From the NCBI GenBank assembly GCA_947373745.1, contig CANBZB010000002.1, positions 1 through 53,280 of the forward strand: DNA of 53,280 nt. Direction: 5' to 3'. Source of the DNA: Burkholderiales bacterium. Lineage in GTDB: Bacteria > Pseudomonadota > Gammaproteobacteria > Burkholderiales > Burkholderiaceae_C. Under the pieces are notes generated by a model. That model was not told the DNA's origin, made no database searches, and was given only the letters and a program-made list of their open reading frames with translations. Positions 11,206 through 29,287 of the stretch are shown one piece after another (position 1 is the first letter of the stretch; every line of letters starts with the position of its first letter). Position numbers and translations under genes: made by a program.

Positions 11206-11298
11206 AAATGGCCTACGTTTGTTTTAAAAAACGGATATTTTTGCCACAACTCTGCTGAGTTGCAACATGTAAATAAACACAGGAGAAAAGTTTTGATC

Positions 11299-12288
11299 AT
11301 GAAATCAGTCTTGACATCACGTCGTGCGTTACTTAGCGCTTTGATATTGGCCAGCGCAACGTTGTCATTGCCATTGGTTGCGCAAAGTGCCTATCCCAAT
11401 CGCCCCATCAAACTCATATCGCCCTTTCCTCCAGGGGGCACCAGCGATACGCTCGCCCGCTTGGTTGCCTCTAAATTAAGCGATGGACTCGGTCAGCCTG
11501 TTACGGTGGACAACCGTATTGGGGCCAGTGGCAATATTGGTCATGAGGCCGCAGCTAAATCGCCCCCTGATGGTTATACGCTCTTGCTTTCAAACAGCAG
11601 CACCACAGTGAACAACCCCCATTTATTCAAAAAAATGCCTTTTGATCCGATCGGTGATTTCGCTGCAATTTCTATCGTGGCGTCTTCGGGCCAAGTATTG
11701 GTAGTACACCCGTCTCTCCCGTTCACGACCCTCGCCGATGTGACGGCTTATGCCAAGGCCAACCCAGGCAAACTGAATTTCGGATCAGGCGGCAAAGGAA
11801 TTCAATCCCACATCAGCGGCGAAATGTACAAAAGTGCGGTGGGTATCAACATTGTCCATGTGCCCTACAAGGGTGGTGTGCTTGCTGTCAACGATTTATT
11901 AGCAGGGCACATACAGATGGTGTTTTCTGATATGGCTCCCGCCATGCCCCACATCAAAGCAGGCAAGCTACGCGCAATTGCAGTGACCAGCGCACAGCGC
12001 GCAGTTGTTTTGCCAGATGTACCCACCATGATCGAGAGCGGTTTGGCAGGGTTTGAGTCTGGCGTCTGGTGGTCTATCGTCGCACCAAAGGGGACGCCGG
12101 TAGAAATAGTCAACCGCGTCAACACAGAGTTAGGCAAGATGGTGCAGCAGCCCGAAGTGCGTGAAGCGTATGCCAAGTTAGGTGTAAACACACAGCACAG
12201 CTCCCCAGCTAAAGTGGCGGAGAGTATTCGTGCTGAATCGCCTGTGATGGCAAAGATTTTGAAAGCAGCGGGAGTTGAAGCTGAGTAA
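11299..12288 (+). CDS. Bug-family (TctC-like) solute-binding protein
   Basis: 'YPNRPIKLISPFPPGGTSDTLARLVASKLSDGLGQPVTVDNRIGASGNIGHEAAAKSPPDGYTLL'. Confidence 0.93.
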   Translation: MKSVLTSRRALLSALILASATLSLPLVAQSAYPNRPIKLISPFPPGGTSDTLARLVASKLSDGLGQPVTVDNRIGASGNIGHEAAAKSPPDGYTLLLSNSSTTVNNPHLFKKMPFDPIGDFAAISIVASSGQVLVVHPSLPFTTLADVTAYAKANPGKLNFGSGGKGIQSHISGEMYKSAVGINIVHVPYKGGVLAVNDLLAGHIQMVFSDMAPAMPHIKAGKLRAIAVTSAQRAVVLPDVPTMIESGLAGFESGVWWSIVAPKGTPVEIVNRVNTELGKMVQQPEVREAYAKLGVNTQHSSPAKVAESIRAESPVMAKILKAAGVEAE

Positions 12289-13092: not shown

Positions 13093-14982
13093 TCAATCGA
13101 TCGAAATGTCATAAGGAACCGAATACGCAGACAAGATTTTCTCTGCGGCTTGTCGGTCTGCTTCAGAAGCTTTGTCCAATTGCAGGTGAGTATGCAATCC
13201 ACTGCCACCCGTATTGGTGATATCAATGCTCCAAGGGCAATTCAATGCTTGCAATGCACCTTCAAAAACCCTTTTAGCGGCATCCATTTGTAGAACATGC
13301 TTCATGGGTTTACCCACTGAGGTCAGTGGCAGTTTATCGAGTATGAAGATTTCTTTGGGAACGGCAGGTCTCTCTGGAATGCGCTCACTGGCAAAAGTCA
13401 GCAACTCCTCTGTGGAGACTTGCATTCCAGGATGCAGTTCAACATAAGCAATCGGCAACTCGCCAGCGTGGGCGTCAGGTTTACCAACTGCGGCGGCTAA
13501 GGCCACATAGGGTGACTGCAACAAGGCTTCCTCAATCAATCCTGGTTCGATGTTATGACCACCACGAATAATCAAATCTTTTTGTCGACCGCTGATGCGC
13601 AAATAACCTTGCGCATCGATGCTACCAAGGTCGCCAGAAACAAAGAACCCATTGGGTAAAAAAGCGCCCTTGTCTTGGCTAGCATCTAAATAACCACCTG
13701 CAACACCGGGTCCACCTACCAGCACCATGCCGATTTCATCAACATCGCAATCACGCAAAATCGTTGCACCCTCGCCCAACTTCACGATACGCAGTTTGAC
13801 GTATGGCACGCGAATGCCGGAGCAACGCCTTCTCACTTCTCCGTCGCGCGGGTCTAGCGTGCAGTGGCTTGTGCTCTCCGTCATGCCATAGCTCTGTAGA
13901 ACTTGTGCACCCGTCACCTCAGCCACTCGGTCTTGGACGGCGGGCGCCATCGCAGTAGAACCCGTAGCGAAATAAGGGCGCAGCGAAGAAATATTCTCTG
14001 TGGTCGGCGGGTTTTTAGCGAGTACGGATAAGGTGGTTGGAACCCCAGAAACTTGCGTGACACCAAATCGTTCGATGTAACGCCAGTAGTTAGCGATATA
14101 GGTTTTATCGCGCGCTCCAAAAATACTGGGGATCACAGCCGTGTTTCCATTGGCTGTATTGACAAGCCCACGCACTAACAAACCACCTATGTGAAATAGC
14201 GGCGTGTCTGAGAGCACCACGTCGCGCCGCGTGAAAGCGAGACCGTTGTTGGCGGCCCAATGCCTAAAGACCATGCCACCGTGCAAGATCTTGACGATCT
14301 TGGGATGCCCTGTTGTGCCACCCGAGTGAACATAACAGGCAATGCTGTCACGCTTAGCTGTCTCGCGTTCAAACGCGAGTCGCTCGCCTGGGTACTGAGA
14401 TGCCGCAACCAGTAAGTCGTCTTTGGCAGGATCGTTAAAAGCCTCATGCAAAGTAAATAACTTAGGCTGACTCGGCAGGCTTGCAACAGCTGCCTGCACG
14501 TTTTCCCATACAGAAAATCCTTGCGTTGGCGCTAAGGCAATCACCAGTTTCACTTGCGCGCGTTGCATCAAGTCTGCCAAAGCATGGGCGTCAAGCATCC
14601 AGTTGATCGGGAACACACGAACAGCTAACAAACCGCCGATCATGGCAGCAAACAAACCGGGTACCGTGGGGGAGACTACGGCCACCACATCGCCTGCACC
14701 CAGCCCACTCGCGCGCAATAGATTGGCGCATTGGATTGCGCGATGTTCTAGTTCGCCAAAGGTCCAGCTACGCACTTCGCCATCCACATGGCCGTTGTGC
14801 GTAGCATGTAAAGCAATTCGACTCGGGTCATCACGGCATCCATCCAGCAAGTTCAACGCAAAGTCCCAACGCGAGATGCGTTGCTCAAGCGGTACTTGTT
14901 CTATAGCTTCGACATCTGCCAAAGTACGCAGCGGGTCGTAATGGTCTTTGAGAGCACCAGCTCCAGGGAGATGCTGGTTCAT
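13093..14982 (-). CDS. AMP-dependent acyl-CoA synthetase
   Basis: 'CYVHSGGTTGHPKIVKI', 'QSYGMTESTSH', 'SGRQKDLIIRGGHNIEP'. Start placed at ATG 14982 (ATGA overlap with upstream CitE-like gene) rather than 15222 of the ORF track. Confidence 0.9.
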   Translation of the reverse strand: MNQHLPGAGALKDHYDPLRTLADVEAIEQVPLEQRISRWDFALNLLDGCRDDPSRIALHATHNGHVDGEVRSWTFGELEHRAIQCANLLRASGLGAGDVVAVVSPTVPGLFAAMIGGLLAVRVFPINWMLDAHALADLMQRAQVKLVIALAPTQGFSVWENVQAAVASLPSQPKLFTLHEAFNDPAKDDLLVAASQYPGERLAFERETAKRDSIACYVHSGGTTGHPKIVKILHGGMVFRHWAANNGLAFTRRDVVLSDTPLFHIGGLLVRGLVNTANGNTAVIPSIFGARDKTYIANYWRYIERFGVTQVSGVPTTLSVLAKNPPTTENISSLRPYFATGSTAMAPAVQDRVAEVTGAQVLQSYGMTESTSHCTLDPRDGEVRRRCSGIRVPYVKLRIVKLGEGATILRDCDVDEIGMVLVGGPGVAGGYLDASQDKGAFLPNGFFVSGDLGSIDAQGYLRISGRQKDLIIRGGHNIEPGLIEEALLQSPYVALAAAVGKPDAHAGELPIAYVELHPGMQVSTEELLTFASERIPERPAVPKEIFILDKLPLTSVGKPMKHVLQMDAAKRVFEGALQALNCPWSIDITNTGGSGLHTHLQLDKASEADRQAAEKILSAYSVPYDISID

Positions 14983-15875
14983 ATCGCCCCCGCCAGTGAC
15001 AAAGTGCGTTCGGCCAATCGCACGTTGGCGTAATCGACCATCATGCCGTCGTATTTCACGGCGCCCACACCGCGCGCCTCGCCTTCGCGAAAGGCGGCAA
15101 GCAAGCCGCGGGCGTATGCAACTTCGGACTCGCTGGGAGAAAAGACAGTGTGCATCACATCCACTTGGGTGGGATGGATGGCCATCTTTCCTACAAAGCC
15201 CAACTCGCGTGCGATTGCGCATTCTTCGCGCAACATATCTATGTCTTTCAGGTTCATAAACACGCCATCAACCAACCACTGCAAGCCTGCGGCGCGTGCA
15301 TCAACTACCAATTTGCTACGCGGATAAGCAAGCGCCAAACTGCGTGGTGTCCAGCGCCCACCTAAATCGACCATGAAGTCACCCTGCTCTGCACTCGCCA
15401 ATGCCATACCAATGACCCTAGGTGAGGCTTTCGCAATATCAAACCCATTACGAAGGCCTAAACAAGTTTCAATCAAGGGCAAGATACACAAAGTGCCTTG
15501 TTGGATATTGTGTTTTGCCTCAATCACCTGCAGGGCATTGGCCACAGCTTGCACATCGTCTGCGTCATCGGCTTTAGGTAAAACAACACCGGCAACATTC
15601 GTCAAGTTACTTGCCTCAGTCAAAACTTTGAGGTCAGCCATAAAGTCACCTGCTCTGGGATTGTTGATGCGCAAAAACATAGGTTTCTGTAAACCTGTTG
15701 CAAGTGAATTGGCAATGTTTTTGCGGGCTTCATCTTTGGCGTTTAAGGGGACCGAATCTTCTAAATCAAAAATCATGGCGTCTGCTTCGCCAAGTTGTGC
15801 TTTGGACAACAACTCCGGACGGCTACCAGGTGCAAACAGCAGGGTGCGGTACATCTTGATGGGTTGGTTATGCAT
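14979..15875 (-). CDS. HpcH/HpaI aldolase / citrate lyase beta-like CoA-ester lyase
   Basis: 'RTLLFAPGSRPELLSKA...ADAMIFDLEDSVP', 'GKMAIHPTQVDVMHTVFSPS'. Confidence 0.9.
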   Translation of the reverse strand: MHNQPIKMYRTLLFAPGSRPELLSKAQLGEADAMIFDLEDSVPLNAKDEARKNIANSLATGLQKPMFLRINNPRAGDFMADLKVLTEASNLTNVAGVVLPKADDADDVQAVANALQVIEAKHNIQQGTLCILPLIETCLGLRNGFDIAKASPRVIGMALASAEQGDFMVDLGGRWTPRSLALAYPRSKLVVDARAAGLQWLVDGVFMNLKDIDMLREECAIARELGFVGKMAIHPTQVDVMHTVFSPSESEVAYARGLLAAFREGEARGVGAVKYDGMMVDYANVRLAERTLSLAGAI

Positions 15876-15878
15876 AGC

Positions 15879-16673
15879 TTATTGACCTTTCCAAATAGGC
15901 GCACGTTTTTCTAGAAATGCCTTGGGCCCTTCTTTTGCGTCATCGGTTGTATATAAAAATGATGCCAAATCTTGCTCTAGTCGAAGCCCGTCCGCCAATG
16001 TCAAGTCTGCACCTCTGTGCACTGCCGCTTTGGCGCTTCGCACCGCAATGGGCGCATTGACGGCAATTTGCTCGGCGAGTTGCATGGCTTTGCTGAGCAA
16101 CTCTTTGGCAGGAACTACGTATTCGATCAATCCTATGGCGAGTGCTTCACGGGCTGAAACAGTTCGTCCCGTCAAAATCATGTCCAAGGCACGGGCAGAA
16201 CCAACACGGCGTGACAGACGCTGTGTACCACCATTGCCGGGCATCAATCCACGTTTAACTTCGCCAAATGCAAACGTTGCTTCTTCAGCGGCAAAAGTCA
16301 AGTCACATAAAAGCGCAAGTTCTACACCTCCACCAATCGCCAAGCCATTGACCGCAGCGATGATCGGTTTGTCAAAAGCCGCAATGCCCTCGTTGTTTTC
16401 CCAGCGATAACGCTTCATCTCTGCCACAGGAACATCTGCGTTTGTCTTGGCAAATTCGCGCAGATCCATGCCTGCTGAAAAAGCTTTTTGACCGCCACCT
16501 GTTAGCACCACCACACCTACCTCTGCATCACGACGCAACGCTTCTAAGACTTGGCGCAATTCACTTCGCATTTGCATATTGATGGCGTTCATCGCGTCGG
16601 GTCTGTTGAGAATCAACGTGGCGACACGCCCGTGTTTTTCGACCATGATGGTCTCGAAGGTGATAGTGTTCAT
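15879..16673 (-). CDS. Enoyl-CoA hydratase/isomerase
   Basis: 'FSAGMDLREFAK', 'IAAVNGLAIGGGVELALLCDLTFAAEEATFAFGEVKRGLMPGNGGTQRLSRRVG'. Confidence 0.93.
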   Translation of the reverse strand: MNTITFETIMVEKHGRVATLILNRPDAMNAINMQMRSELRQVLEALRRDAEVGVVVLTGGGQKAFSAGMDLREFAKTNADVPVAEMKRYRWENNEGIAAFDKPIIAAVNGLAIGGGVELALLCDLTFAAEEATFAFGEVKRGLMPGNGGTQRLSRRVGSARALDMILTGRTVSAREALAIGLIEYVVPAKELLSKAMQLAEQIAVNAPIAVRSAKAAVHRGADLTLADGLRLEQDLASFLYTTDDAKEGPKAFLEKRAPIWKGQ

Positions 16674-16755
16674 AGGGTCATATTGGTTGTCTAAATATAG
16701 AATAACCGAATCAGGTCATAACACCTGTAGCCTGTTTGTCAGTACAAGTACACCT

Positions 16756-17898
16756 ATGAATTTTGGAAATACAAGTGACCAGGAGTTAATGCTCCAATCC
16801 GTTCGTTCTTTGCTAGACGATGTCTGCAGCATGAACTACGCCACCAAGTGCGACAACGATCGCACCCCCCCCAGAGAGGCTTTCAATGCTATGGCCCAAA
16901 ACGGCTGGTTAGGATTGATTGCCCCTGAGTCCTTTGGCGGTTCTGGTGGTTCCCCCACCGACCTAGCTTTGGTGCTCGAAGAAACAGGACACCATTTCGA
17001 AGAATTGGGTCTGTGGCTTTTCCGCAGCTTTACCTACGGTTGCTACGCCATCCTGCAGCATGGAACCGAAGAACAAAAACAACGCATCGTGCCCGGCGCC
17101 GCCAACGGCAAGCTATCTTTTGCATTTGCGCTTTCAGAGCCTGACTCAGGCTCTGACGCAGCATCTCTCAGAACACGTGCTGTGATCGATGGTGACTATT
17201 TCATCGTCAACGGACGTAAGCAGTGGACGTCAGGAATGGACATTGCCGACTATGTCTTGGTTGCACTGCGTACCAACGATCTAGGCAAAAAGCAATTAGG
17301 CATCAGCACCCTGATGATCGACACCAAGTTGCCAGGCATCGAAGTGCGCAAGATTGCCACTTTGGGCCAACACGCGATTGGAACGACTGAAGTGACTTTC
17401 ACCGATGTGCGCGTACCACGTACAGCATTGCTCGGGCAACTCGACCATGGTTGGGCTGTATGCGAAGACACCTTGCGCTATGAGCGCCTATGCCTTTCCG
17501 CTGTGCGGATTGGCGCTGCCCGTCAAGCCTTCGAATACGCACTGGACTACGCCAAGACCCGCCAACAGTTTGGCAAGCCCATTGGTAGCTTTCAAGTCAC
17601 GCAGCACAAGTTTGCAGATATGAAAGTGATGCTCGACACGTCTTTCACGATGGTGCGTCGCTATGCTTGGCTGATGGAAAACGGCAAAGCAGAACGTGCG
17701 GATACCGCTGTTATCAAGTACTACATCGCTGAGTCTTATAAAACCATATCGGATATGTGTTTGCAAATCCTAGGCGGATATGGCTACAGCATGGAATATC
17801 CAATGCAACGATTTTTCCGCGATTCCCGACTTGCCACTATCGGCGGCGGAACTTCAGAAATTCAAAAGAACATCATTGCGTCCACTTTGGGACTTTGA
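16756..17898 (+). CDS. Acyl-CoA dehydrogenase
   Basis: 'FALSEPDSGSDAASLRTRAV', 'RQQFGKPIGSFQVTQHKFADM', 'QILGGYGYSMEYPMQRFFRDSRLATIGGGTSEIQKNIIA'. Start at 16756 within ORF 16579..17898. Confidence 0.93.
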   Translation: MNFGNTSDQELMLQSVRSLLDDVCSMNYATKCDNDRTPPREAFNAMAQNGWLGLIAPESFGGSGGSPTDLALVLEETGHHFEELGLWLFRSFTYGCYAILQHGTEEQKQRIVPGAANGKLSFAFALSEPDSGSDAASLRTRAVIDGDYFIVNGRKQWTSGMDIADYVLVALRTNDLGKKQLGISTLMIDTKLPGIEVRKIATLGQHAIGTTEVTFTDVRVPRTALLGQLDHGWAVCEDTLRYERLCLSAVRIGAARQAFEYALDYAKTRQQFGKPIGSFQVTQHKFADMKVMLDTSFTMVRRYAWLMENGKAERADTAVIKYYIAESYKTISDMCLQILGGYGYSMEYPMQRFFRDSRLATIGGGTSEIQKNIIASTLGL

Positions 17899-17899
17899 T

Positions 17900-18496
17900 T
17901 TAGCTAGCCCTCGCCAATGCCAATGCGTGTTGAAGTGGGTCACTCTCAACCACTTCTGTGACCAAGCCCCAGCGCTGGGCTTGTTCGGCATCAAAAGGGC
18001 GACCGGTTAAAGCCGCGTAGGCTAAACCACGCGCGGACATCACCTCGCCCACAGCTTTGATGATCTGTCCACCCGGAACAAAGCCGAAATTGATTTCCGG
18101 CAACCCGAACTTTGAGTCGCGGTGTGCAACGACTGCAGTGGAAGCGGCAATGATCGGCAAACCACCCCCTAAGCAATAGCCTTCAACTGCACTGAAGATT
18201 TTTTGTGGCATTTGCCGTAGCAACTCAATACGCCAATGTTCGGTCGCTGCCCGCGCGCGTTGCAATAGTTCTGCTGGACGGGTCGAACTATCAAAGAAGT
18301 CTTTCATATCCATGCCAGCACAAAAGTGCCCGCCTAGTCCATGAAAGACGATAGCTTTCACCGTCGGATCGACTTGGGTTTTGAGCAATATCTCTTCCAA
18401 CGCAAGCGTCATTTCCACACCAATGGCGTTGCGCTTGTCAGGTCGGTTTAAACCAATGCAGCGTATGCCGTCAGCCTTATCTTCTATTTTGAGCAT
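17900..18496 (-). CDS. Crotonase (hydroxycinnamoyl-CoA hydratase/lyase-like core) lacking C-terminal helical domain
   Basis: 'GHFCAGMDMKDFFD', 'SAVEGYCLGGGLPIIAASTAVVAHRDSKFGLPEINFGFVPGGQIIKAVGEVMSARGLAYAALTGRPF'; stops at 198 aa after '...ALALARAS'. Confidence 0.88.
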   Translation of the reverse strand: MLKIEDKADGIRCIGLNRPDKRNAIGVEMTLALEEILLKTQVDPTVKAIVFHGLGGHFCAGMDMKDFFDSSTRPAELLQRARAATEHWRIELLRQMPQKIFSAVEGYCLGGGLPIIAASTAVVAHRDSKFGLPEINFGFVPGGQIIKAVGEVMSARGLAYAALTGRPFDAEQAQRWGLVTEVVESDPLQHALALARAS

Positions 18497-18499
18497 CGA

Positions 18500-19192
18500 T
18501 TACGCTCCAGCACCAGGCTTAGATTTACCAGCAAGAAAACTCTCGATCGCTAAGGCGCGAGCAGATGGACGCCCCGCTTGGAGCGATTTGATTTCCACCT
18601 GTTGGGATGTCGTGAAGTTCAGTATCGCGTTCCAAGAGACTGCGGCTACTTGTTGCACCGTTTTTTTAGTGAATCGAAGTGCTAGCGAATCTTTGGCGGC
18701 GAGTTCACGTGCTAATTTATAGGCTTGGGCTTCTAACTCTGCAGCAGGAAAGTAAAGGGTGGCCCAATCACTACTGGCGTGCCCGATCGGCATGCGATTT
18801 TGCGTATTTTTTGCTGCGTTGGCTTCATTTGTTGCAATCACAATATCGCAAGCTTGCAAGATTGGAATCGCTTCTTCCTGAACTTGTCCGAACACCATAG
18901 CAACAATAGGTTGCGGCATTTGGCACAAATGCAAAGCCACTTGGGGAGCCATCTTCTCAACAGAATTTGCTTCAAGTCCTTCAACCAGCTGAGCACTATC
19001 ATTGCGTAGCACGATAACTTGCACAGCCTCATCGGCCTGCGCCAATCTCAACCGCTCCATTAGATTTTCAAATGGGCTTGTCTCGGTCGAACGCATCAAC
19101 TCGGAAGCATTAGGCTTTTTAGAACTCGCCCAATAAAGAGTAAGCACACCGTCGACTAGGTCAGCGGGCGCAAATGGATTAGCGTTCATCAC
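18500..19192 (-). CDS. Degenerate crotonase-fold protein retaining the C-terminal helical segment
   Basis: Crotonase-like 'PQPIVAMVFGQVQEEAIPILQACDIVIA' with GGG replaced, and C-terminus 'YKLARELAAKDSLALRFTKKTVQQV...SFLAGKSKPG'. Confidence 0.72.
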   Translation of the reverse strand: MMNANPFAPADLVDGVLTLYWASSKKPNASELMRSTETSPFENLMERLRLAQADEAVQVIVLRNDSAQLVEGLEANSVEKMAPQVALHLCQMPQPIVAMVFGQVQEEAIPILQACDIVIATNEANAAKNTQNRMPIGHASSDWATLYFPAAELEAQAYKLARELAAKDSLALRFTKKTVQQVAAVSWNAILNFTTSQQVEIKSLQAGRPSARALAIESFLAGKSKPGAGA

Positions 19193-20355
19193 GCCACTAA
19201 CGCACGCATGATGCGGTAAAGCCTTGCCTGGCCTTCAAATCCAATGCCGGGACGCTCAGGCAAATTTAACTTTCCTTCTGTCAGGCGTGCATCGTCTGCG
19301 AAACCTCCGAAGTCACCAAAAACTCCAGGGTATGACTCTGCTCCACCAAGACCAAAACCAGCTGCTATGTGCAATGACATTTGGTTGCCTCCATGGGGGA
19401 ACAGTCCACTTCTTTGCCAACCCATAGCATCTAACCTTGACAAGGTGTGCGCATATTGGGCAATGCCATAAGCCTGTGGTGGATCGACTTGGATGACATC
19501 ACGGTCGCCACGCAGTCCGCCAAATCGGACTAGGTTTTCGACATCTTGGGTTGAAAATAAATTTTCGCCAGTGGCCAAAGGACTGTCGTAGATCTGCGCG
19601 ATTTCGGCCATCAGCCCATAGTCCAGAGGGTCACAAGGTTCTTCGAACCAACGCAATTTGAATGGAGCGAGCGCCTTGGCATATGCGAAAGCATTGTCGC
19701 GATCAAATTTGCAATTGGCATCAACAGCCAGATGATCGCCAGAACCTACGACTTGCAAAACTGCTTCTAGACGGCGCAAATCTTCAGACAAAGGCAAACC
19801 ACCCACCTTCATCTTGACCATGCTGTAACCCGCGTCAAGATGGCGTCGCATTTCGTCTTGTAAGTCTTGAATGGTTTGTCCTGGGAAATACCATCCACCA
19901 CCGACGTAACAAAAAACGCGATCCACTACTTTTCCACTATTGAAACGCTCTGCCAAAACACGGTGCAAAGGTTTGCACTCAATTTTGGCCACTGCATCCC
20001 ACAGTGCAACTTCAATCGTACCGATGGCAATTGAACGTTCGCTGTGACCGCCTGCTTTCTCTCGACGCATCATGCAGGCTACGATTTTGTGGGGGTCGAG
20101 GTTTTCGCCCGTATCGTCCAGCAAGCTAGCAGGATCCGCGCGCAAGATGCGCGGAATAAAGCGATCCCGCATTTGTGCGCCACAGGCGTAGCGGCCTGTG
20201 GAATTGAAGGCGTAGCCAACAACAGGTTGGCCGTCGCGCACGCAATCGGTCATCACAGCAACCACCGAGGTGGTCATCTCTGAAAAATCAAAGCTCGAAT
20301 TGCTGATAGTTGAATTAAGAGGTACAGCGACCTCTCGTATGTCGACGATACGCAT
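19189..20355 (-). CDS. Enolase-superfamily dehydratase, D-tartrate dehydratase-like
   Basis: 'MVKMKVGG' (KxK), 'LAVDANCKF', 'RWFEEPCDPLDYGL', 'LATGENLFSTQD', 'FPHGGNQMSLHIAAGFGLGGAESYP'; resembles Bradyrhizobium D-tartrate dehydratase as remembered. Start at 20355 rather than 20424. Confidence 0.82.
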   Translation of the reverse strand: MRIVDIREVAVPLNSTISNSSFDFSEMTTSVVAVMTDCVRDGQPVVGYAFNSTGRYACGAQMRDRFIPRILRADPASLLDDTGENLDPHKIVACMMRREKAGGHSERSIAIGTIEVALWDAVAKIECKPLHRVLAERFNSGKVVDRVFCYVGGGWYFPGQTIQDLQDEMRRHLDAGYSMVKMKVGGLPLSEDLRRLEAVLQVVGSGDHLAVDANCKFDRDNAFAYAKALAPFKLRWFEEPCDPLDYGLMAEIAQIYDSPLATGENLFSTQDVENLVRFGGLRGDRDVIQVDPPQAYGIAQYAHTLSRLDAMGWQRSGLFPHGGNQMSLHIAAGFGLGGAESYPGVFGDFGGFADDARLTEGKLNLPERPGIGFEGQARLYRIMRALVA

Positions 20356-20381
20356 AGCTAAATGAATGGTCAGATATGGGA

Positions 20382-21347
20382 TTAATCGATCTTGATTTTT
20401 GCGTCGCGAATTACTTTGCCCCAACGATTCACTTCGTTATGAATATAAGTATTGAATTGTTCAGGCGTATTGCCAACAGGATCGAACCCCATAGAGAGAA
20501 GCTTTGCACGTGTGTCGGGTTGGGCCACAATTTTGACGATTTCTTGGTGCAAACGATCCACAATAGCCTTAGGTGTTCCAGTGGGCACAAGCAAACCTTG
20601 CATGGTCTCTGCCTCTTGTCCGCTGATACCGGCCTCAGCCAAAGTAGGTACATCAGGCAACTCAGGATTACGTTTGGCACTTGTCACTGCTAGCGCACGC
20701 AAGGCGCCACTTTTCACATGCGCCATGGCAGGAGGGAGCGCTGTCACGCCCACTGGGGTATGTCCTGCAAGGACTGAAGTAATAGCAGGTCCTGCACCGC
20801 CAAAAGGCGCGCTCACCATATCGATGTTGTAAGATAAGCGAAGCAGCTCACCGGAGAGGTGGGGTGTGGTGCCCACACCAGGATGCGCGAAGCTGTATTT
20901 GCCAGGGTTGGCGCGAATAAGGGCGATAAGTTCTTGAATAGTCTTTGCAGGCACAGAAGGATGCACTACGACCAAATTGGGCGACGCTCCAGCTAGTGAA
21001 ATGGGCAAGAAGTCTTTGTAGGCGTCATAAGGCACGCTGGTGTAGAGACTGGGATTGACCACAAAGCTGCTGCTGACCATCGTGAGCGTATAGCCATCGG
21101 GCGCGGCTTTAGCGCCCATGCCCATACCAATATTGCCGCCGGCACCAGCACGGTTTTCTACGATGAACGATTGACCCATGCTCTCGGTGAATTTTTGGGC
21201 CAATATGCGCGCCATAGCGTCAGTAGGTCCTCCAGAAGCAAACGGCACGATGATGCGCACGGGCTTATTAGGGTAAGTCTGGGCTTGGGAAGCAACAGAC
21301 AACAGCAGTGCAATAAAACTGATAACGATACGCAGGGTAAATTTCAT
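20382..21347 (-). CDS. Bug-family solute-binding protein
   Basis: 'YPNKPVRIIVPFASGGPTDAMARILAQKFTESMGQSFIVENRAGAGGNIGM'. Confidence 0.93.
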   Translation of the reverse strand: MKFTLRIVISFIALLLSVASQAQTYPNKPVRIIVPFASGGPTDAMARILAQKFTESMGQSFIVENRAGAGGNIGMGMGAKAAPDGYTLTMVSSSFVVNPSLYTSVPYDAYKDFLPISLAGASPNLVVVHPSVPAKTIQELIALIRANPGKYSFAHPGVGTTPHLSGELLRLSYNIDMVSAPFGGAGPAITSVLAGHTPVGVTALPPAMAHVKSGALRALAVTSAKRNPELPDVPTLAEAGISGQEAETMQGLLVPTGTPKAIVDRLHQEIVKIVAQPDTRAKLLSMGFDPVGNTPEQFNTYIHNEVNRWGKVIRDAKIKID

Positions 21348-23181: not shown

Positions 23182-24171
23182 TTATTGCTTATCGATCTTG
23201 GCTTTGGTGATCACTTCGTGCCAGCGTTTGATATCTGCAGCTAAAACCTCGGCGACCTGCTCTGGTGTACTGCTTTGGGCAGTGAGGTTGAGATCACTCA
23301 AACGCTTTTTGACATCAGGCATTTCCATGATGGTTTGAATTTCACGGTTCAAACGCATGACCACGTCACGCGGCGTGCGCGCAGGCACTGCCAAGCCGTT
23401 CCATGATGCCGCTTGAAACTTGGCAAGACTGCCACCAGACTCTTGCACCGTGGGAACGCCCGGCAAACTGTCGGTGCGTTTATCACCTAACAAGGCAAGT
23501 GGTCGCACCGCATTGGATTTAATTTGCGGCATCAGTGGACCCAAGATTTCCACCATTGCGTCCAAGCTGCCGCCGCGCAAAGCGGTGATGACGGGTGGCG
23601 TGCCATTGAAAGGCACGATTTGGGCTTGCAGACCGGAGGCACTCAGAAAATATTCAGCAGACAGATTTTGCGTGGTGCCAACTTGGGGTGTACCTATATT
23701 CAGTTTGCCTGGATTAGCCTTGGCATACGCCAATAAATCTGCAAAGGTCTTGAATCTACCGCCTTCTGCAACAGCAATCACCAGATCAAACGTCGCCAAT
23801 TTAGACACAGGAATGAAGTCTTTCACAGTATCAAAAGGAAGCGTCTTAAATAGCGACGCGCTAACCGCTGTTCCACTAGAAATCAGCAATAAGGTGTGGC
23901 CATCGGGTTCCGCACGGGCTACTTGTTCGCCCGCCACAATGCCGCCGGCACTGGGTTTGTTTTCAGTTACTACCGATTGGCCTAAGGCTTCAGATAACTT
24001 TTGCGCCACTGTGCGTGCGGTGATGTCAGCAGCACCACCCGCTGCATTTGGCACCACAATTTTTAGTGTCTTGTTGGGAAAGCCTGTCGTTTGCGCAATT
24101 GACATGCCTGTCAAACATAGCGTCAGACCTAATGCCAATGCACGTGATAGTTGGTTAAGATGATTTTTCAT
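23182..24171 (-). CDS. Bug-family solute-binding protein
   Basis: 'FPNKTLKIVVPNAAGGAADITARTVAQKLSEALGQSVVTENKPSAGGIVAGEQVARAEPDGHTLL'. Confidence 0.92.
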   Translation of the reverse strand: MKNHLNQLSRALALGLTLCLTGMSIAQTTGFPNKTLKIVVPNAAGGAADITARTVAQKLSEALGQSVVTENKPSAGGIVAGEQVARAEPDGHTLLLISSGTAVSASLFKTLPFDTVKDFIPVSKLATFDLVIAVAEGGRFKTFADLLAYAKANPGKLNIGTPQVGTTQNLSAEYFLSASGLQAQIVPFNGTPPVITALRGGSLDAMVEILGPLMPQIKSNAVRPLALLGDKRTDSLPGVPTVQESGGSLAKFQAASWNGLAVPARTPRDVVMRLNREIQTIMEMPDVKKRLSDLNLTAQSSTPEQVAEVLAADIKRWHEVITKAKIDKQ

Positions 24172-24185
24172 AATAGGAGACGGGT

Positions 24186-25199
24186 ATGGCAGAAGTGTTC
24201 AAAGGTTGTAATTTACAGGCGCTATTTTGTCATCGGAAAAATATAGCTTTATTGGCCTGCTTCATTGCGTTGTCTAACCTTGGCGTTCAGGCGCAAACTG
24301 CTTGGCCCACAAGGGCAGTCACCATTGTGGTGCCATTCACACCAGGTGGTGGAACCGATGTGGGGACACGCGTTGTCGCGCAGCGCTTGTCACAGCTCTG
24401 GGGTCAACCCGTATTGGTAGAAAACCGTGCAGGTGCTGGAGGTAATGTCGGTCTTGAAGCCGTCTCTCGCGCAAAGCCTGATGGCTACACCTTGCTCACG
24501 GGTAACGTTGGTACGCAGTCAATCAACCCAACGCTCTATAAAAAACTTAACTACAACCCAGACACCTCATTCACGCCTATCAGTTTGATTGCAGAATTAC
24601 CTTTTGCGATGGTGGTGACACCCTCCTTGCCTGTCAAAACTCCGCAAGACCTTGTGGCCTTATCTAAGGCGCAACCTAATTTGCTCTCTTACGCGAGTTC
24701 TGGTGCCGGAGGCTCTCCCCATTTATCTATGGAGACCTTCAAAATTGCAACCGGCGCCAAAATTCAACATGTGCCCTACAAAGGTGGTAGCGCCGCTATC
24801 ACCGACTTGATGTCGGGCAATGTACAAGTGTTGATGGTGTCTATTTTGGAAACGTCGGCCTACGTCAAAGCTGGCAAACTGAAAGGCCTTGCAGTCACCA
24901 GCAAGTCACGCTCGCCAGCGATGCCAGATGTCCCCACCATGGTGGAGTCGGGCATCACAGGCGCTGAGTCAGGCTCTTGGATTGGCTTCCTCGCACCCCA
25001 AGGCACTCCCAAAGAAATCGTCGACAAAATTGCAGCTGGCGTAAAAGAGGTTGTTGCCATGCCTGAGGTCAGCCAGCAGTTGATCGGGCAAGGCGCCGTA
25101 CCCATGAGCTCAACACCTGCACAATTTGCAGAGCTGATCGCCAACGACAGAAAACGTTATGCACGCATCATTATTGAGAACCAACTCACTGCTGACTGA
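24186..25199 (+). CDS. Bug-family solute-binding protein
   Basis: 'WPTRAVTIVVPFTPGGGTDVGTRVVAQRLSQLWGQPVLVENRAGAGGNVGLEAVSRAKPDGYTLL'. Confidence 0.92.
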   Translation: MAEVFKGCNLQALFCHRKNIALLACFIALSNLGVQAQTAWPTRAVTIVVPFTPGGGTDVGTRVVAQRLSQLWGQPVLVENRAGAGGNVGLEAVSRAKPDGYTLLTGNVGTQSINPTLYKKLNYNPDTSFTPISLIAELPFAMVVTPSLPVKTPQDLVALSKAQPNLLSYASSGAGGSPHLSMETFKIATGAKIQHVPYKGGSAAITDLMSGNVQVLMVSILETSAYVKAGKLKGLAVTSKSRSPAMPDVPTMVESGITGAESGSWIGFLAPQGTPKEIVDKIAAGVKEVVAMPEVSQQLIGQGAVPMSSTPAQFAELIANDRKRYARIIIENQLTAD

Positions 25200-25224: not shown

Positions 25225-26604
25225 TCACAGTATTTTCGAGAACCGCATTCTTTGTTGGTCGCCTTGTAAATAGCGGTCAAACACCATGGCAATGGCGCGT
25301 ATGACAAACCAACCTAAGTCGGTGACCTCTATCCCTGCCTCATCAAGATGCACCAGGCCTTGCGCCTGCATATCTTCGAGTTGTGTCAGTTCAGCTTGAA
25401 AATATTCTTTGAAATTCATCAGGTGCGTTGAATTGATTGTTTCAAAGTTGACAGTGCCTTGACACATCAAGGCCATGATGACGCTTCTGCGTAGCAAATC
25501 ATCTTTCGACAAGGCCACCCCCCGCACCACGGGCAGGCGCCCTTGCTCCAACAAGTCTTGGTACTCGTCTAATGACTTGGTATTTTGTTGGTAAGTAGCG
25601 CCAATATTGCCTATCGACGAGACGCCTAGACCAATCAAATCGCTATCGGGCTGGGTGGTATAGCCCTGAAAATTTCGGTGTAGACGCCCTTGTCGTTTGG
25701 CGACAGCCAAAGCATCTTCTGGCAATGCGAAGTGGTCCATGCCGATATACACATAACCTTCAGACTGCAAGACATCAATAGCCTGTGACAACATAGCGGT
25801 TTTAGCCTCTGCCATTGGTAAATCGCTAGCGTTGATATGGCGTTGTGGTTTGAACCTAGCCGGCAAATGCGCATAGGCATACAAAGCAATCCGCTCAGGT
25901 CGAAGTTGGACGATAGTGTGCAGAGTTTGCGTCCATGATTGCGTCGTTTGTTTAGGCAGACCATAAATCAAATCGAGGTTGACGGATTTAAATCCTAGGT
26001 TGCGAGCTGCATGCATCAGGTCTTGCACTTGTTGAACGGTCTGCTCGCGATGTACAGCGATCTGCACTTGCTGATCAAAATCCTGCACGCCCAATGACAG
26101 TCGGTTGAAACCTAGTTCTCGCAACTTTGTGAGTCTTTGTGCATCGACTGTTCGGGGATCGACTTCAACAGAATATTCGCCGTCAATCTTCCATTGAAAA
26201 GCCTTACCCAGAATCTCCATAAGCGAACGCAGTTCGGCATCACGAAAAAAAGTAGGAGTGCCGCCACCAAGATGGAGTTGCGAGACCAGATTTGCCGGAC
26301 CTAAATGTGGCATCAGCAATTCCACTTCTATTTGTAAACTTTTTAAATACTGCTCTGCACGCTCATATTTACCCGTAATGATCTTGTTGCAAGCACAGTA
26401 GTAGCAAAGCGATTCACAAAATGGAATATGCACATAGACGGACAACGGATAGGCATGCGAACGCGCACTGTGCTTGCGAAGCTCTAATGCCTGCAGGTAT
26501 TCGGTCTCCGCAAATGCCTCTACAAACCGATCTGCAGTGGGGTACGAGGTGTACCGAGGTCCGGGAACATCAAAACTTTGCAGTAACTTTGAAAAAGGTG
26601 TCAT
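25225..26604 (-). CDS. hemN: Oxygen-independent coproporphyrinogen III oxidase
   Basis: 'VYVHIPFCESLCYYCACNKIITGKYERAEQYLKSLQIEVELL'; 'GPRYTSYPTADRF'; 'QLHLGGGTPTFF'. Confidence 0.95.
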   Translation of the reverse strand: MTPFSKLLQSFDVPGPRYTSYPTADRFVEAFAETEYLQALELRKHSARSHAYPLSVYVHIPFCESLCYYCACNKIITGKYERAEQYLKSLQIEVELLMPHLGPANLVSQLHLGGGTPTFFRDAELRSLMEILGKAFQWKIDGEYSVEVDPRTVDAQRLTKLRELGFNRLSLGVQDFDQQVQIAVHREQTVQQVQDLMHAARNLGFKSVNLDLIYGLPKQTTQSWTQTLHTIVQLRPERIALYAYAHLPARFKPQRHINASDLPMAEAKTAMLSQAIDVLQSEGYVYIGMDHFALPEDALAVAKRQGRLHRNFQGYTTQPDSDLIGLGVSSIGNIGATYQQNTKSLDEYQDLLEQGRLPVVRGVALSKDDLLRRSVIMALMCQGTVNFETINSTHLMNFKEYFQAELTQLEDMQAQGLVHLDEAGIEVTDLGWFVIRAIAMVFDRYLQGDQQRMRFSKIL

Positions 26605-26656
26605 ATACAGGTACTAAAAACAGTACCGAATATGACTGAAAGCGCGTTGGAAAGAT

Positions 26657-26670
26657 TTGCTCTATATCAA
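26657..26670 (-). promoter_or_regulatory. Putative FNR/ANR-type site upstream of hemN
   Basis: Minus strand TTGATATAGAGCAA versus TTGAT-N4-ATCAA: one mismatch, about 53 bp upstream of the hemN start. Confidence 0.65.
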
Positions 26671-26690
26671 GAAAACGCAAGCAAACAGCA

Positions 26691-27857
26691 TTATTCGCCT
26701 CCAAGCCCTAAGGTATTGGGCAATCTTTTTTCAACATGGTGTCGCAACAAGGAAGCCGTTCTAAAAATGCCGTGGGCAAACTTTCCATACGGGAGAGTTA
26801 GAAAAAGCGCCATCACTACACCTAAGTGGGAGGCCAACACCAAGGGCAAATAAGGGCTTTCTTTTACCGCTACGAGTAACAACCCACTCCAAGCGGTGAG
26901 CCAAAGTAAAGCAATAAATCCTAAATCCATGGGCCTTTGCGCCCTGTCACCATGGTCTGGGTGACGCCGAAGGTGTAACCAACTCAACCACGTAGTGCCT
27001 ATTCCTAAAAATAGTCCGCCCGTGACGCCAAATAATTTGGGCAGGCTACTCAAGTCATAAGGTGCTACCCAGCCAAAAGCATAGTGGTACAGCGTGGCAA
27101 CTGAAGTTGCTAAAAAACACAACATGAAACCATAAAAAGTGAGGTGATGGGCTTGACGTCGCGCATCAGTCCAGTTTTCATCTGCGTTGTGACAGCCTTC
27201 GCCATGGCCACCATCTAAATTTTTTAAACGTAAAGCGTCCCATACTGCGCCTGACGTAGCTTCTAAGTTTGGTTCTTGTCGCCCTGTTGCAGGCGTCACA
27301 TCACGCCAAAAGTGACGAACTCCAAGGCTCAGTGAGAGCACTACAAAAGCAAAGACAGGCAAAAACAAATTCACCAACAAACCATGCGGAAATATGCTGT
27401 AGAAATTATTGTCAGCAACGGGTCCGAACAAGGTACTGTTGAACTTTAAAGCGAGACACAGGAAAACAGTTAAGCCAAAGGCCAAGCACAAGGCTATCCA
27501 CAATCCATTCGCAGCATAGAGCTTGCCAAAAGCGCCTGGCCATGCATAGCGTGTGTAAGTTTCTAAACGAACGCGCGCCATGGCTCTGGGCACGTTGATG
27601 CCAAAGTCATGCGGTGGCGCGTATTGGCATGCATGTAAACATGCACCGCAGTTGTGACAGAGATTAGCAAGGTAATGGATGTCAGCATCTGCAAAAGTAA
27701 GACGTCGCGTCATAGCCGAAAACGTTGCACAAAAACTTTCGCAATAACGACAGGCATTGCAGACTTGCATTTGCCGCGCGACTTCTTGTTCGGCGCTAAG
27801 GCCTTCACCTCTCGCCAAGGCCTTGGCTTCCTCTGTGAGTGCTAATAGATTACTCAT
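26691..27857 (-). CDS. tcuB: Tricarballylate utilisation protein B-like Fe-S/membrane protein
   Basis: '[17 protein letters not shown]' and '[31 protein letters not shown]' plus C-terminal TM segments. Confidence 0.88.
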
Positions 27858-29287
27858 GCCAAGGCTCCTACCGCTAATGCAGCTTGGGCCGCATGCGCAC
27901 CGGCCTGTTGTCCAAAGAATGTGCCAATCGTCATGCCTACGCCGGCGGTGTAGCCTTTGCCCAGCACATTGCCAGCCATGATTTCACCGGCAGCAAATAA
28001 GTTGGGGCTTGGTACGCCTGAAAAATGCACTGCAGTTGTTTCGTCTGTTTTAAGACCTAAATAAGTGAAGGTGATACCTGGACGCAAAGGATAAGCATAA
28101 AAAGGCGCGACATCGATGGTGCGAGCCCAATGGGTTTTGGCAGGTTGCACGCCCTCGGTGTAACAGTTGTCCAACACTGTATGGTTAAAGTCGCCAGGCA
28201 CACACGATGCATTAAAGCCATCCATGGTTTGCATGAATTTTTCTACGTTGAGTTCTAACTTTGCAGCCAATTCAGGCAAAGTGTTGGCCACGATAGCTTC
28301 AAACACCGGCGGCATAAACCGGCCTATGGCTTTGCTGTCGATAATGGAATAGCCAATTTGCTGCGGTTGTTGTGCGACCAATCGGCCCCAAATCGCATAG
28401 CGCTTGGGCCAAAAATCTTCACCTTCATCATAAAAACGCTCTGCATTTTGGTTGACAACAACACCTAAAGAGACTGAGTCCAGTCGGGTGCAAATGCCAC
28501 CGTCATATAAGGGAGCTCTGGCATCGATCGCCACCATATGCGCTTGCGTAGGGTCACCAATGATGTCGGCGCCCTGCGCCATCAAAAACTTCAACATCTC
28601 ACCTTGGTTGTAACGCGAACCTCGAATCAAGAAGTTATCTGCTGACCATTCACCTAAAGCGTTCTGTCCCCAAGCTTCGCGCAACCATTCGCGGTTGGAC
28701 TCAAAGCCACCACAGGCCAAAACGCATGTTTTGGCATACACCCAGTCCTCTTGGGCTTGGCCTTTTGCATCGGTACGATGCACACGTGCAGCTTCAAAAC
28801 GGCCATCGACGAGTTTGAGTTCGCTCACGCGGGCGTTGTAATCCACAGCTATACCGTGACGCTCTGCGCTGAGGTAGTAGGCATTGACCAGCGCCTTGCC
28901 TCCCCCCATAAAAAAAGCGTTGGTACGCGCTGTATGCAAAGCCCCTGAAAGCGACGGCTGAAAACGCACGCCGTGCTTGTGCATCCAAGTACGAAACGTG
29001 GCGGACGAACGAATGACCAAACGTGCCAGATGCTCGTTGGTTTGTCCACCCGTGACTTTGAGCAAATCTTGCCAGTACTCTTCTTCAGGGTAAGCATCGA
29101 CCAGCACATCTTGTGGCGCGTCATGCATACAACGCACATTACGTGTGTGCGATGAATTGCCACCACGCCAGGCCTTTGGCGAGGACTCCAAAATGCGCAC
29201 CGTAGCGCCTGCTTCTGCAGCCACAAGTGCTGCGCATAACGCCGCATTGCCACCGCCTATAACAAGGACATCGGTCTGAGGTTTCAT
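27854..29287 (-). CDS. tcuA: FAD-dependent tricarballylate dehydrogenase-like
   Basis: '[50 protein letters not shown]'; 4-nt overlap with tcuB. Confidence 0.88.

Follow-up and report, generated by a model that had tools for sequence, protein, structure and literature searches.

Two adjacent genes in the genome of an uncultured Burkholderiales bacterium encode crotonase-like proteins that lack different parts of the fold, which raises the question of whether they make one enzyme in two pieces. Crotonases are classic homo-oligomers, and their C-terminal domains (CTDs) are often exchanged between identical subunits. The oligomer is assembled through the three-helix CTD, which also closes over the CoA site, often that of a neighbouring subunit. 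Sequence comparisons make it likely that the two genes encode one heteromeric crotonase, in which a pseudoenzyme gives its CTD in trans to a catalytic core. The analysis covered a window of 53,280 nucleotides, the whole stretch of DNA considered here, and related genomes.

Both open reading frames lie on the minus strand (Table 1). The 3-nt spacing reported by the first-pass annotation was borne out by the junction sequence, TAA TCG ATG. The pseudo-subunit probably starts at ATG 19189 (229 aa), because this codon shares bases with the stop codon of the enolase-family gene upstream (TGATG).

Table 1. Features of the crotonase pair and its neighbours, in window coordinates.
Feature	Coordinates	Strand	Remarks
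Acyl-CoA synthetase	13093..15222	-	Start near 14982 suggested by relatives
CitE-like (HpcH/HpaI) acyl-CoA lyase	14979..15875	-	
Second, complete enoyl-CoA hydratase (ECH), 264 aa	15879..16673	-	Own CTD
Acyl-CoA dehydrogenase, convergent	16579..17898	+	Start near 16756 suggested by relatives
Catalytic subunit, 198 aa	17900..18496	-	CTD-less HCHL-like crotonase; GHFCAGMD, YCLGGGLP, FGLPEINFGFVPGG; Glu134 = HCHL Glu143
Junction TAA-TCG-ATG	18494..18502	-	Same frame in window
Pseudo-crotonase subunit, 230 aa as listed	18500..19192	-	Likely 229 aa from ATG 19189
Helical CTD of pseudo-subunit, residues 148-230	18503..18751	-	Conserved
Crotonase core of pseudo-subunit	18752..19192	-	Degenerate, partly deleted
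Mandelate racemase/enolase-superfamily gene, upstream	19189..20424	-	Stop overlaps pseudo-subunit ATG

The two proteins were compared with models of the hydroxycinnamoyl/feruloyl-CoA hydratase-lyase (HCHL) family. The 198-aa protein matches positions 16–198 of 276 in PRK09120 and then ends, in agreement with its initial description as a crotonase core that stops where the helical CTD should start. The best stretch of the 230-aa protein is positions 190–269 of the same model; it had been described as having a degenerate core and an intact C-terminal segment, and this also stands. Scores against NF006588 are 141 bits for the 198-aa protein and 44 bits for the 230-aa protein. An in-silico chimera of the catalytic core and the pseudo-subunit CTD gives one contiguous HCHL match from 16 to 269 at 173 bits, and all three scores lie below the HCHL equivalog cut-off of 276 bits. 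Because the model spans complement each other and the chimera matches contiguously, the lesions of the two proteins are complementary on a single family model. The proteins overlap by ~20 residues, and the helix preceding the CTD is present in both.

The catalytic subunit scores 114 bits against Pfam ECH_1 (gathering score 27), which places it in the crotonase superfamily, and its most similar family is NF006588, p-hydroxycinnamoyl-CoA hydratase/lyase. It carries a KR pair near the N-terminus, an oxyanion motif (GGG, or GGA in many relatives) and Glu134, which aligns with HCHL Glu143; all three are conserved in orthologues. Catalytic subunits thus have both the catalytic glutamate and the oxyanion glycines of HCHL. 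The tyrosine of the HCHL KEYF motif is replaced by Phe (KDFF) in all catalytic copies. This tyrosine, Tyr75, is the phenol-binding residue, and with Phe at its position a p-hydroxycinnamoyl substrate is not implied. The CTD that crotonases carry on the same chain is missing from all 14 complete catalytic subunits. An apparently full-length version in the sister genus was discarded; its length had been read from stop to stop, and the gene there encodes 199 aa.

An AlphaFold model of the catalytic subunit, built from 7 sequences, has a pLDDT of 81.5 and a pTM of 0.83. The PDB entries that it matches best are HCHL-type enzymes, with a query-normalised TM of 0.84 over ~197 columns of 239-residue targets. 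The pLDDT falls below 50 only at residues 135-142, directly after the catalytic Glu. The corresponding loop of DmdD shifts conformation between states in which the site is covered or uncovered by the C-terminal loop of a neighbour (PMC3660561). A fused-chain AlphaFold model (pLDDT 45.7) was based on an alignment of just 5 related rows; it was uninformative and was set aside.

The pseudo-subunit core has lost the KR phosphate-binding pair and the oxyanion GG, and its catalytic loop is deleted. Two details of the first-pass annotation were corrected. The catalytic GG(G/A) aligns with EEA, not QEE, and ~31 residues, rather than about 50, are absent after CDIVIA in the window genome, where unrelated sequence partly fills the gap; ~48 are absent in four close relatives. 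The window protein scores 25.0 bits against Pfam ECH_1, for which the gathering score is 27. Near-full-length pseudo-subunits occur in five genomes (G729, G760, G751, G738 and G026), and those scanned (G729, G751 and G026) match HCHL end to end, e.g., at 129.5 bits. Different core segments have been lost in the window lineage, its near relatives, the sister genus and G017; the core is eroding by different deletions in each lineage while the CTD is held. The invariant tail residues of the pseudo-subunit are F219, L220, G222 and K225-P226-G227. DmdD uses its CTD to form the hexamer, and a tail Phe and basic residues contact the CoA of the neighbour (PMC3660561); judged by sequence, the invariant tail appears to occupy the corresponding place. 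The pseudo-subunits of G751 and G738 (L044:10374-11213 and L045:9861-10700) retain GVG where the oxyanion motif lies, and they have a Glu close to the catalytic position but not on it. They possibly represent an earlier stage with residual activity.

The first-pass annotation had raised the prospect that the pair would not be conserved, and a search of other genomes returned it in 15, namely 12 of the 85 genomes of the genus and all 3 of a sister genus. These copies come mainly from fragmented draft assemblies. The carriers are a small group of uncultured Burkholderiales bacteria. Every genome with the catalytic gene (15/15) also has the pseudo gene, placed directly upstream in each case. The two genes are separated by 3 nt in the genus and by 4 nt in the sister genus; in G017 they overlap. 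At the thresholds used, the catalytic gene was not found elsewhere in samples of 301 family, 400 order, 274 class and 399 phylum genomes. In plasmid records, all matches were ordinary HCHLs or other crotonases; the best ones listed share ≤40% identity with the 198-aa protein, and none of those examined belonged to a second split pair. The top-ranked plasmid-borne relative of the catalytic subunit among the matches listed (38%) is a full-length HCHL-like gene on a Roseomonas plasmid (L053:1486-2304), located between a CoA ligase and a TctC receptor. This gene may show the unsplit form.

Selection was estimated by pairwise Nei-Gojobori dN/dS on short segments, with saturated comparisons set aside. 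Values are 0.07–0.16 for the catalytic subunit, 0.02–0.19 for the pseudo-subunit CTD and 0.2–0.97 for the pseudo-subunit core. Across the 13 genomes with both genes, mean pairwise identity is 0.68 for the catalytic subunit, 0.60 for the pseudo-subunit CTD and 0.34 for its core, and CTD identity exceeds core identity in 78/78 pairs. In control comparisons, this holds for 0/6 pairs of four full-length HCHLs, where the core is better conserved, and for 25/45 pairs of the cluster's own ECH, which shows no bias. The CTD is 83–85 residues long in all 14 copies analysed, the core 105–177. Twenty-two of the 27 residues invariant in these copies are in the CTD. This reversed conservation gradient is predicted by CTD donation in trans.

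The proposed arrangement is as follows. The 198-aa subunit is predicted, from the model and alignments, to fold as a catalytic beta-beta-alpha spiral with an oxyanion hole and catalytic Glu, and its KR pair would bind the CoA phosphates. It lacks the three-helix CTD with which crotonases assemble the oligomer and close the CoA site. The pseudo-subunit is a related crotonase of the HCHL type whose active site has been lost; it would stay in the oligomer and provide this CTD in trans. The simplest mechanism would be a mixed oligomer in which the pseudo-subunit lends its lid to the catalytic subunit. Within what is presumably a gene cluster for acid catabolism, the complex would be expected to hydrate, and perhaps cleave by retro-aldol reaction, a substituted enoyl-CoA. 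The two proteins probably function solely as one mixed complex. The fuller proposal, which we favour with some reservation, is an obligate hetero-oligomer with a domain-level division of labour and composite active sites, whose pseudoenzyme is shrinking independently in several lineages to a CTD donor.

The arrangement probably arose when a homo-oligomeric HCHL-like enzyme was duplicated in tandem and the copies then lost complementary parts, the CTD in one and catalytic function in the other. In the core tree, pseudo-subunits form one clade and catalytic subunits another; in the CTD tree, pseudo-subunit CTDs group with HCHLs, apart from ECHs (99/99). Because the fast-evolving core gives long branches, the sister relation of the two subunits is not settled by the tree, and for this reason we infer duplication and complementary loss rather than read them from it.

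Other explanations were weighed against these data. The 198-aa protein may be a minimal CTD-less enzyme that acts alone, with the pseudo-subunit a separate regulator or the partner of another protein, such as the complete ECH of the cluster. The predicted core does fold confidently by itself, and the cluster does contain a second crotonase. However, what is conserved in the pseudo-subunit is exactly the segment that its neighbour lacks, crotonase CTDs touch CoA and build the oligomer (PMC3660561, PMC3637252), and the ECH already has a CTD of its own; we consider this explanation unlikely. A chaperone or assembly factor that the catalytic core needs in order to fold and that is absent from the mature enzyme would leave an identical genetic signature, being linked, encoded first and relaxed in its core. 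It is very unlikely, since CTD residues of crotonases form part of the CoA site, and the pseudo-subunit has an invariant F...KPG tail that resembles this CoA-contacting tail, which would be superfluous for a chaperone.

Simple decay of a duplicated gene, or an artefact of assembly or frameshift, is hardly plausible. The core is degenerate, and its dN/dS approaches 1 (0.97) in one close pair, L020-L040, but the arrangement is common to 15 genomes, all 14 copies analysed are open reading frames, and the CTD is under purifying selection. The genome count and dN/dS led to rejection of decay or error for the CTD. The concern in the first-pass annotation that the 230-aa gene might be decaying was not upheld, as purifying selection on its CTD is as strong as on the catalytic partner and only the core is relaxed. 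Stop read-through to a single polypeptide has a near-negligible probability. The genes share a frame in the window and near relatives, with a single sense codon after the stop (TAA in the window), but the stop codon varies (TAA, TAG and TGA), the sister genus has a 4-nt gap, and the overlap in G017 is out of frame. Because frame and stop codon vary, read-through fusion was rejected as a conserved feature. The original suggestion of a CTD supplied in trans thus appears supported: the pair is conserved, the 230-aa gene is not decaying as a whole, and the conservation gradient is reversed.

The conserved cluster comprises the pseudo-subunit, catalytic subunit, convergent acyl-CoA dehydrogenase, complete ECH, CitE-like lyase and acyl-CoA synthetase; an enolase-superfamily gene and a TctC receptor are often present as well, and some contigs end within the cluster. 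The genes present point to a pathway in which a carboxylic acid is activated, dehydrogenated, hydrated and cleaved by a lyase. The position of the enolase-superfamily gene varies: in the window lineage it immediately precedes the pair, in G729, G760, G751, G738 and G026 it comes after the acyl-CoA synthetase, and in the sister genus none was seen near the two crotonase genes. The window also encodes four TctC-type (Bug) solute receptors within 14 kb (11260-12288, 20382-21347, 23182-24171 and 24186-25199), many for one small genome region. Tricarballylate-utilisation-like genes lie at 25225-29287. Among them, a TcuB match above the curated cut-off (26691-27857; matched by NCBIfam, with no Pfam match) adjoins an FAD-dependent oxidoreductase, next to a HemN coproporphyrinogen oxidase match.

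If the heteromeric reading is correct, CTD exchange has become obligatory between two genes in a natural system. A route from homomer to heteromer by complementary degeneration would be directly testable, as related species still carry both near-full-length and heavily eroded pseudoenzymes. The pair would also provide a natural two-part crotonase for study of the role of the CTD in catalysis. Short or degenerate enoyl-CoA hydratases may be subunits, not fragments, and should be annotated with caution.

In the open literature, with most subscription journals outside the scope of the search, no comparable split, heteromeric or pseudoenzyme crotonase was found, and PaaFG and BoxC were the only related cases. 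PaaF-PaaG is likewise a hetero-oligomer of two crotonases but consists of stacked, separate homotrimers, each complete and active (PMC4498308). BoxC has two crotonase domains, one alone with an active centre; its domains are fused, however, and its description does not include a CTD-less core and a CTD donor (PMC4498308). HCHL (NF006588; PDB 2J5I, 2VSU and 6P5U) is the best family for both subunits and gives the best fold matches, sharing the core with the Glu143 equivalent and the C-terminal F...K.xPG tail. It is one 276-aa chain, whereas core and CTD are here on two genes; its KEYF is KDFF here, and the residue following GGG also differs. Peroxisomal MFE1 covers its crotonase site with a helix (domain B/H10) that forms a separable domain and packs on others, but within a single chain (PMC10988713). 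The C-terminal helices of crotonases fold back on their own core or cover the active site of a neighbour, and those of MenB (DHNA-CoA synthase) cross to the opposite trimer (PMC3637252). MenB and DmdD are precedents for a CTD that completes a neighbour's active site (PMC3637252, PMC3660561). MenB differs in being a homo-oligomer in which donor and acceptor are the same protein (PMC3637252). In DmdD, CTD helices and the C-terminal loop make the hexamer and bind the neighbour's CoA, as proposed here for the pseudo-subunit, but DmdD is a homohexamer with every part in one chain (PMC3660561).
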